A DNA stretch of 64,000 nucleotides from Gammaproteobacteria bacterium RIFCSPHIGHO2_12_FULL_63_22 (GTDB lineage: Bacteria; Pseudomonadota; Gammaproteobacteria; Xanthomonadales; Xanthomonadaceae). Positions within the stretch are counted from its first letter, which is position 1. The number at the start of each line of letters is the position of its first letter. Made by a program: the position numbers and the translations under genes. Where the stretch lies: assembly GCA_001801685.1 (NCBI GenBank), contig MGYJ01000090.1, positions 62,001-126,000 of the forward strand, in the 5' to 3' direction. This document shows, piece by piece, positions 7,267 to 25,199 of this stretch. The notes beneath the pieces are model-generated. The model saw only the letters and a list, made by a program, of their open reading frames with translations, was not told the DNA's origin and searched no databases.

Positions 7267-7292
7267 GTGGGAGCGGCCTTGGCCGCGATGAG
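7267..7292 (+). repeat. REP-like palindromic element, copy 1
   Basis: gtgggagcggccttggccgcgatgag; inverted copy at about 7348-7372. Confidence 0.75.
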
Positions 7293-7305
7293 TCTTGCCA
7301 AGCAA

Positions 7306-7335
7306 AACGGCGGCCAGTGGCCGCCGTTGTTTTTT
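7306..7335 (+). terminator. Rho-independent terminator after clpA
   Basis: Perfect 10-bp stem aacggcggcc-agt-ggccgccgtt followed by gttttttt. Confidence 0.85.
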
Positions 7336-7347
7336 ATATTGCGAGAT

Positions 7348-7372
7348 TCATCGCGGCCAAGGCCGCTCCCAC
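7348..7372 (-). repeat. REP-like palindromic element, copy 2 (inverted), with partial third copy at 7376-7386
   Basis: ttcatcgcggccaaggccgctcccac is the reverse complement of copy 1; aagccgctcccac follows directly. Confidence 0.75.
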
Positions 7373-23360: not shown

Positions 23361-24326
23361 ATGGCGGCAATCGAAGTCTCAGGGGGCGTGAAACAGGTGC
23401 TCGTGCCCGAGGATCGGGACGGTCAACGCCTCGATAATTTCCTGTTGGGGCAACTCAAGGGTGCCCCGCGCAGCCTCATTTACAAGCTGGTTCGCAGCGG
23501 CCAAGTCCGGATCAATGGCAAGCGGGCCAAGCCGGATTCGCGCGTCTCTGGTGGCGATGAGATCCGGATCCCGCCGGTCCGCCTCGAAGAGTCGGGTGAA
23601 CCGCGCACGCCGCCCAAGTCGATGCTCGAGCGGCTCGCCGCAAGCATCATTTTCGAGGACAAGGCGCTACTCGCCCTGAGCAAGCCCAGCGGAATCGCCG
23701 CGCATGGCGGCAGTGGCGTCAGCTTCGGTGTGATCGAGGGGCTGCGCGCACTGCGCCCGGGCGAACCCCTGGAACTCGTGCATCGGCTCGATCGCGACAC
23801 TTCCGGCGTACTTGTGATTGCGAAGAAGCGCTCGGCGCTGCTCGAATTGCAGGCGTTGATGCGTGAAGGCGAAGACGAGGAAGCGCCCAACAAGCGCTAC
23901 CTCACGCTGCTGGTCGGTCGCATGCCGCAGGGCACGATGACCGTTGAAGCACCCTTGCTGCGCTCGGTGATGCAGGGCGGTGAACGCATGGTGCGCGTCG
24001 ATCCCTCGGGCAAGGCGTCCACCAGCCATTTCAAGCTGATCGAACGACGCGGCGGCCACAGCTTCTGCGAAGTACACATCGAAACCGGCCGCACCCACCA
24101 GATCCGTGTACACGCCGCGCACATCGGCCATCCCGTCGCGGGCGACGAAAAATACGGCGACCGCGAAGCCAACAAACGTTTGTCGGAACAAGCCGGTCTC
24201 AAGCGGCTCTTCCTGCACGCATCATCCATGGCGTTTGAACTGGGGCAGGGACGCGACAAACATCCGTACTTGATCAGCGCACCGCTCGCAGACGATCTGC
24301 GCAACGTGCTCGATCGGCTCGCCTAG
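23361..24326 (+). CDS. rluC: 23S rRNA pseudouridine synthase RluC-like
   Basis: S4 domain then LVHRLDRDTSGVLVIAKKRSAL (RluA/C catalytic motif); divergent from rne. Confidence 0.95.
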   Translation: MAAIEVSGGVKQVLVPEDRDGQRLDNFLLGQLKGAPRSLIYKLVRSGQVRINGKRAKPDSRVSGGDEIRIPPVRLEESGEPRTPPKSMLERLAASIIFEDKALLALSKPSGIAAHGGSGVSFGVIEGLRALRPGEPLELVHRLDRDTSGVLVIAKKRSALLELQALMREGEDEEAPNKRYLTLLVGRMPQGTMTVEAPLLRSVMQGGERMVRVDPSGKASTSHFKLIERRGGHSFCEVHIETGRTHQIRVHAAHIGHPVAGDEKYGDREANKRLSEQAGLKRLFLHASSMAFELGQGRDKHPYLISAPLADDLRNVLDRLA

Positions 24327-24366
24327 TCAACGCTAGCTGAGACTCCGGGTACCGCGTCGCACTGCT

Positions 24367-24513
24367 GAACGTCGCCGAGGGTGGGGTCCGCCCTGGTCGC
24401 CCCGGCGTAGCCGCTCCATGCGGACTCAGGGTCGACCGGGCGGCCATCCATGGCCACGGCCGGACAATTGTCCGGCCACCTGTGCGAACCCCACCCTCGT
24501 CGCCGTCCAGCAG
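24367..24513 (-). repeat. Palindromic MITE-like intergenic element, copy A (with extra 20-bp palindrome)
   Basis: Reverse complement aligns with copy B over its length (GGCGACGAGGG.GGGGTTCG ... GTCGACyCTGAGTCCGCA.GGAGCGGCTACGCCG ... CGACCAGGGCG.ACCC.CCCTCGGCGAC); near-perfect terminal inverted repeats. Confidence 0.8.
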
Positions 24514-24690
24514 CGCGCGGGACTCAGACACCATCAACGTGGTTGAAAAGCGGCCAAGCATCTACGTGGGTCTAGCCGTCGCGACGGAGTCACTTGTGCG
24601 GAAACTTCGATTCCCGATTCAGGAAATTCGCGCTGCCCTGGCAATTCGCGGCGCATCGCGTCTCGGCTGTCAGTGCCGAATTCGCGAGCG

Positions 24691-24823
24691 ATGCTGAAGG
24701 GCGACGAGGGGCGGGTTCGGACAGGAGGTTGGCCATGGATGGCCAACCGGTCGACTCTGAGTCCGCAGGAGCGGCTACGCCGAGTCGACCAGGGCGAACC
24801 CGCCCCTCGGCGACATTCAGCAT
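24691..24823 (+). repeat. Palindromic MITE-like intergenic element, copy B
   Basis: Terminal inverted repeats ATGCTGAAGGGCGACGAGGGGCGGGTTCG / CGAACCCGCCCCTCGGCGACATTCAGCAT (26 of 29 positions pair by my count). Confidence 0.8.
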
Positions 24824-24857
24824 CGAAACGCAGAAATTCTGGAACTGAAAGCCCGGC

Positions 24858-25199
24858 CTAGAGCTGCAGTTGCTCGGCCTTCGCAGCGCAGATGAAGTCG
24901 TTGGCGCTCAATCCGCCCACGTCATGCGTCGAGTAGCGAACCTCGACCCGGTTGTAGTGCACGCTCAGGTCGGGGTGGTGGTCCTGGCGATGGGCGATGA
25001 AGGCGAGGGCGTTCACGAAGGCCATCGTCCGGTAGTAGTCATCGAATTTGAAGGACTTGCGGATGGCCTGGCCGTTTTCGACCAGCATCCATCCCGGCAG
25101 GACATTCAGGAATCCCTGGACCTCTTCATAAGGCAGGCGGTGGTCGGGGCCGCGGAGCGGGACGCAGTGGCGCGAAGCGAGTTCGGTGAGCTGGGGCAT
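24858..25199 (-). CDS. phhB: 4a-hydroxytetrahydrobiopterin (pterin-4-alpha-carbinolamine) dehydratase
   Basis: RKSFKFDDYYRTMAFVNALAFIAHRQDHHPDLSVHYNRVEVRYSTHDVGGLSANDFICAAKAE. Confidence 0.93.
   Translation of the reverse strand: MPQLTELASRHCVPLRGPDHRLPYEEVQGFLNVLPGWMLVENGQAIRKSFKFDDYYRTMAFVNALAFIAHRQDHHPDLSVHYNRVEVRYSTHDVGGLSANDFICAAKAEQLQL

Follow-up and report, generated by a model that had tools for sequence, protein, structure and literature searches.

The gap between rluC and phhB in the window, the stretch of 64,000 nucleotides of Gammaproteobacteria bacterium RIFCSPHIGHO2_12_FULL_63_22 that was analysed, holds two copies of one palindromic unit lying in opposite orientation (Table 1). 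This pair had been described in an earlier note on the same DNA, and both a repeat search and a covariance model built from the family of the window (R1) recovered it; in inverted orientation copies A and B are 84-92% alike over two blocks, and the arm differences between them had been quoted correctly. The predicted fold of each unit is a three-way junction in which a closing stem of ~30 bp holds two hairpins, the first being GGCCAUGGAUGGCC with extensions and the second an outer stem with CCGC-A(U)GGA-GCGG at its tip. The inner repeat ggtcgactc/gagtcgacc listed in the note was identified as the stem of hairpin 2; an extra perfect hairpin of copy A, GGCCGGACAATTGTCCGGCC, had escaped it, and in the unit alignment only copy A and the left-hand unit at C18 have this hairpin, copy B being devoid of it. 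As already proposed, the small open reading frames of the region are by-products of the repeat and not genes, since the presence or absence of a T in GCA(T)GGAG shifts the frame after the conserved ATG. A small protein read from AGGAGG-N6-ATG was also rejected, its frame not being kept through hairpin 2 and AGGAGG being missing in many relatives. The window gave no significant Rfam match for a known RNA. Elsewhere in it, at positions 7267-7372, lies an inverted pair of REP type, GTGGGAGCGGCCTTGGCCGCGATGA...TCATCGCGGCCAAGGCCGCTCCCAC, which belongs to the classical Xanthomonad REPs and has no relation to the units described here.

Table 1. Genes and features of the rluC-phhB region (positions in the window)
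Feature	Position	Strand	Basis and remarks
rluC	23361-24326	+	
phhB	24861-25199	-	placed via its translation
Copy A, one structured unit	24362-24513	- (GGA-bearing sense)	model R1 match G000:C90:86362-86513:-, 112 bits
Copy A stem arms	24358-24401 / 24474-24517		82% complementary (repeat search)
Copy A hairpin 1 loop AUGGAU, closing pair C-G	24446-24451	-	fold; predicted CsrA/RsmA site
Copy A hairpin 2 tip CCGC-AUGGA-GCGG	24411-24423	-	fold; AUGGA pentaloop, predicted second site
Extra perfect hairpin in copy A	24458-24477	unstranded	unit alignment
Spacer between the two outward-facing units	24514-24690	unstranded	
Copy B, one structured unit	24691-24823	+ (sense)	model R1 match G000:C90:86691-86823:+, 138 bits
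Copy B stem arms	24689-24719 / 24795-24825		90% complementary (repeat search)
Copy B hairpin 1	24727-24748	+	fold; loop AUGGAU 24735-24740, predicted CsrA/RsmA site
Copy B hairpin 2, tip CCGC-AGGA-GCGG	24749-24790	+	fold; loop AGGA 24767-24770, predicted second, weaker site

The suspicion that the pair belongs to a dispersed repeat family was substantiated by a whole-genome search with R1, which retrieved 27 units of 134-150 bp in the genome of origin, so that the refuting condition set in the note, the absence of other copies, does not hold. All units but one, at C47, form inverted pairs, of which there are 13. A second sub-type, distinguished by its stems, accounts for one unit at each of C2, C69, C61 and the second C41 locus, and the two units at C72 make up a third. 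All 13 pairs show outward polarity; six are located in convergent and four in codirectional gaps, none is clearly divergent, and four loci gave no clear call. The units typically lie 10-80 bp from stop codons, gap lengths being approximate and genes having been called with a simple gene finder that mis-called some frames. In the related genomes G253, G125 and G176 only 2 of 40 loci are divergent, and 23 of 32 singletons read toward the 3' end of a gene on the opposite strand. A pure 3'UTR origin was rejected as a general rule, 13 of the 32 singletons of these three genomes having a gene 5' end behind them. The proximity to stop codons and the scarcity of divergent loci are what would be expected of bidirectional transcript-end or mRNA-stabilising structures serving the flanking genes, with no role for CsrA/RsmA; nonetheless, we regard this explanation as very improbable, given that no T-run follows the stems, that ordinary terminators already adjoin some units (at C18, C47, C61 and C69) and that the conserved features are the loops, which a terminator does not need. 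The spacers are unrelated in sequence between loci, and their best sigma-70-like promoter sites are no better than those of shuffled sequences. One of them (G000:C69:52057-52203) holds an inverted repeat of its own, GAGGTGGGGAAGA...TCTTCCCCACCTC, and some others extend the arms inward, as GGGGTGGAGT/ACTCCACCCC at C18. In one unit (G000:C41:70918-71074) 20 consecutive N interrupt hairpin 2, where the assembly probably has a gap.

The compensatory stem changes noticed between copies A and B hold for the family at large. The stems of 21 genomic copies comprise 1134 cells, of which 96.4% pair; 24 of the 54 stem pairs have changed on both sides, 106 cells being double changes; column shuffles gave 86% paired cells, 14 such pairs and 27 double-change cells, none of the 500 shuffles reached any observed value, and pairing fell to 28-46% when the registers were slid. 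Therefore, the covariation of the stems is not a matter of chance. The stems are also asymmetric between strands: the GGA-bearing strand tolerates G.U over A.C in its stems (19:1 in the own units, 30:9 in those of relatives) and gives a more stable fold than the complementary strand in 26 of 26 own units, in 23 of the 28 decided units when one per genome is taken and in 22 of the 23 decided units of G125, the units of G253 being without strand bias in stability (13 vs 9). Tolerance and stability together are easier to reconcile with an RNA, or in any case with one particular single strand, than with a symmetric cruciform of DNA. Arm homogenisation of quasi-palindromes by template switching in the absence of selection is a documented phenomenon (PMC8604942, PMC7202029), so that the matched changes could in principle reflect replication errors corrected within passive elements, with no selection on an RNA, and the nearly perfect stems of G253, with their lack of strand bias, would agree with such a history. 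As a full account of the family this is improbable: certain fixed columns (e.g. 12-123, 27-108 and 72-90) retain G.U pairs that correction would remove, the strand bias outside G253 is strong, and the recurrence of the same loop motif in unrelated genera is not predicted. Template-switch correction may contribute to the matching of the arms, but leaves both the G.U bias and the loops unexplained.

What the earlier note missed is that, across genera, the GGA-bearing loops of one strand are conserved and the terminal repeat is not. Such a pattern is indicative of an RNA bound by CsrA/RsmA and not of a mere DNA palindrome. In the relatives the stems are unrelated in sequence and the loop theme is constant (CCAUGGAUGG, CCAAGGAUGG, CCAGGGAUGG, ACAUGGACGU, ACAGGAUGU, GCAGGAUGC and others), although conservation of the hairpin 1 loop is partly ascertained, the relatives having been found with a model that contains it; hairpin 2, which varies more, is for this reason the fairer test. 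With one unit counted per genome in 31 genomes, 60 of the 63 predicted hairpin loops of the sense strand contained GGA, as did 1 of the 62 loops of the complement and 325 of the 1679 of shuffled sequences, and at least two CA(N)GGA motifs were present in 29 of 31 sense units, in none of the 31 complements and in 12 of 620 shuffles. Besides the AUGGAU of hairpin 1 in both copies of the window and the AUGGA (copy A) or AGGA (copy B) of hairpin 2, AGGAU occurs as the hairpin 2 loop of sub-type B. The highest affinity for CsrA/RsmA is known for an ANGGAX hexaloop placed directly on the stem, some pentaloops are also tight binders and loops lacking the N bind more weakly (PMC4005645); in both loop and stem the units agree with this high-affinity rule (PMC4005645, PMC7652899). 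SELEX yielded the consensus RUACARGGAUGU in ligands with stems of mostly ≤4 pairs (PMC7652899), as compared to the 8-9 pairs in the hairpins of these units. The units thus display the CsrA/RsmA-type feature, A(N)GGA(N) in stem-borne hairpin loops, more than once per RNA. The genome of origin also encodes the candidate partner, with three csrA-type genes over the PF02599 cut-off (G000:C78:21547, C55:3993 and C96:9771). A weak fourth match was seen in the same search.

Of the 219 genomes of the family, 28, representing 13 of its 54 genera, contain R1 units at E<=1e-4; units were also found in one further family within the order (G042 and G052). Copy number reaches ~60 matches per genome in Lysobacter-family genomes, the matches at E<=0.01 (60 in G253, 27 in G125, 21 in G107, 18 in G052, 15 in G131, 14 in G176 and 13 in G031) being upper estimates that may include opposite-strand matches of one place. 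A DNA pattern scan, some other matches of which look like chance, extended the two-hairpin theme to named members of Lysobacter, Luteimonas, Thermomonas and Stenotrophomonas; Pseudomonas, Halomonas and Billgrantia yielded multi-hairpin GGA structures of a related kind. Outward polarity was observed in all 13 pairs scored in relatives and also in the Pseudomonas regions L079, L113 and L137, the exception seen being L227, with two TwoAYGGAY matches in the same direction. In G253 the core and the loops are nearly identical among copies, and the nearly perfect stems differ in a matched fashion; in this genome (L238-L257) a short conserved 5' flank, CCGAAGACCGGGCAATGAA, precedes many of the copies and CGGAAGAC/CCGCAGACG follow them on the 3' side, flanks which might mark the ends of an insertion.

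Comparison of closely related species revealed that the units come and go. Synteny of rluC and phhB is kept in 13 congeners, and 11 of these gaps measure 10-106 bp; that of the closest relative (G005), of 61 bp, holds a REP-type hairpin, and that of G008 contains unrelated DNA. The G019 gap (L210, 1239-1352, minus strand) contains a REP-flanked unit of another sub-type, with loops CAGGGACG and CCCATGGATGGG, which indicates either an independent arrival or an old presence with losses elsewhere. Likewise, the rplI-dnaB gap is ~700 bp in the genome of origin and ~150-195 bp in most congeners. Empty sites do exist in congeners, with flanks too diverged for a target-site duplication to be read, and GTAG REPs occur there separately from the units. 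This pattern of presence and absence, together with the high copy number, the inverted pairs of constant polarity and the short conserved flanks in G253, would also suit a mobile DNA palindrome of the non-autonomous type (MITE- or BIME-like), transposed as the outward pair through recognition of its single-stranded hairpins by a transposase, with no part played by RNA; recognition of single-stranded DNA could equally produce the strand bias. The linkage to a TnpA_REP that the earlier note had envisaged found no backing, as the genome of origin gave no match to Y1_Tnp (PF01797), which does match in five control genomes, and no transposase was seen among the neighbours of its copies. Given, in addition, that the spacers differ from locus to locus and that the loops correspond, across genera, both to a protein-RNA site and to an RNA family defined independently in Rfam, we consider the mobile palindrome an unlikely explanation.

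That family is TwoAYGGAY (RF01731, clan CL00106), an RNA of no known function since 2010, with which the units share a closing stem that holds hairpins with loops resembling AYGGAY. It is placed in the Csr/Rsm clan and was proposed in 2014 to bind CsrA, a role then unvalidated (PMC4333381). L079 and L081 (Pseudomonas), L108 (Lysobacter) and L227 match RF01731 above its gathering score of 43 bits, with 50.1 bits for L108 and 46.1 bits for L227 (G136), relatives of the same structural family. RF01731 and R1 matches coincide in place and strand in G136, G258, G209, G107, G052, G253 and G125, several of them below the Rfam cut-off, whereas the genome of origin, including the units of the window, gave no RF01731 match at E<=10. 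Since the intermediate genomes match both models and the genome of origin R1 alone, the units of the window are TwoAYGGAY-like without being formal members of the family. The AUGGAU of hairpin 1 fits AYGGAY, the loop of hairpin 2 is A(U)GGA here and AYGGAY there, and neither a high copy number nor inverted pairs facing outward are described in the TwoAYGGAY literature examined. In Pseudomonas (L079, L113 and L137, of Pseudomonas sp. BP8 and P. reidholzensis) several TwoAYGGAY-like units per region were observed, with outward pairs ~400 bp apart, which suggests that RF01731 is a dispersed repeat in this genus too.

Multiple stem-borne GGA loops per RNA are also typical of CsrB, CsrC, RsmX, RsmY, RsmZ and RsmW, and with these sponges the units would share the titration of CsrA/RsmA; the sponges, however, are single dedicated genes and the units many, short and dispersed, with a long closing stem. 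In Xanthomonas, homologues of the classical sponges were reported to be lacking, RsmU being the only such RNA found (PMC7694677). Compared by description, RsmU resembles the units in being an RsmA-binding RNA of the same bacterial order located at a gene 3' end, but it is the unique, unrepeated product of a comEA-type mRNA 3'UTR, reported from Xanthomonas only (PMC7694677). The REP/BIME systems with TnpA_REP are likewise intergenic palindromic repeats found as inverted pairs; REPs, however, measure 20-40 bp and carry a GTAG or CGTC tag (PMC3733652), whereas the units are three-way junctions of 134-150 bp that start at the closing stem with no such tag, in a genome without a Y1 transposase.

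Taken together, these units look like dispersed docking RNAs for CsrA/RsmA and not like ordinary palindromic debris, and they probably constitute a TwoAYGGAY-like family of CsrA/RsmA-binding RNAs. On transcription of the GGA-bearing strand, the long closing stem would hold the two hairpins side by side, each exposing A(N)GGA(N) in its loop, so that one CsrA/RsmA dimer could clamp both loops of a unit; many copies might then titrate the regulator, or tether it to the transcripts of which they are part. As a dispersed intergenic repeat, the family would spread mainly to positions beside the 3' ends of genes, frequently in inverted pairs that face outward. Other gammaproteobacteria rely on few dedicated sponge sRNA genes. 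It can be speculated, as a tentative and rather doubtful extension, that, through a repeat family that moves or duplicates, the intergenic regions of some genomes have become a distributed CsrA/RsmA sponge, in which tens of copies jointly set the level of free regulator in place of those few genes and the outward pairing is itself selected. If tens of such repeats do have working CsrA/RsmA sites, a class of repeats usually dismissed as debris would be a titration system, whose strength could vary with copy number between close species.

A further observation concerns Billgrantia, Halomonas and Salinicola, in which L084, L086, L089 and L093 contain multi-hairpin structures with CATGGATG and CAGGATG loops. 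L086 and L093 gave no Rfam match, and structures of this Halomonas type are possible unlisted Csr/Rsm RNAs.
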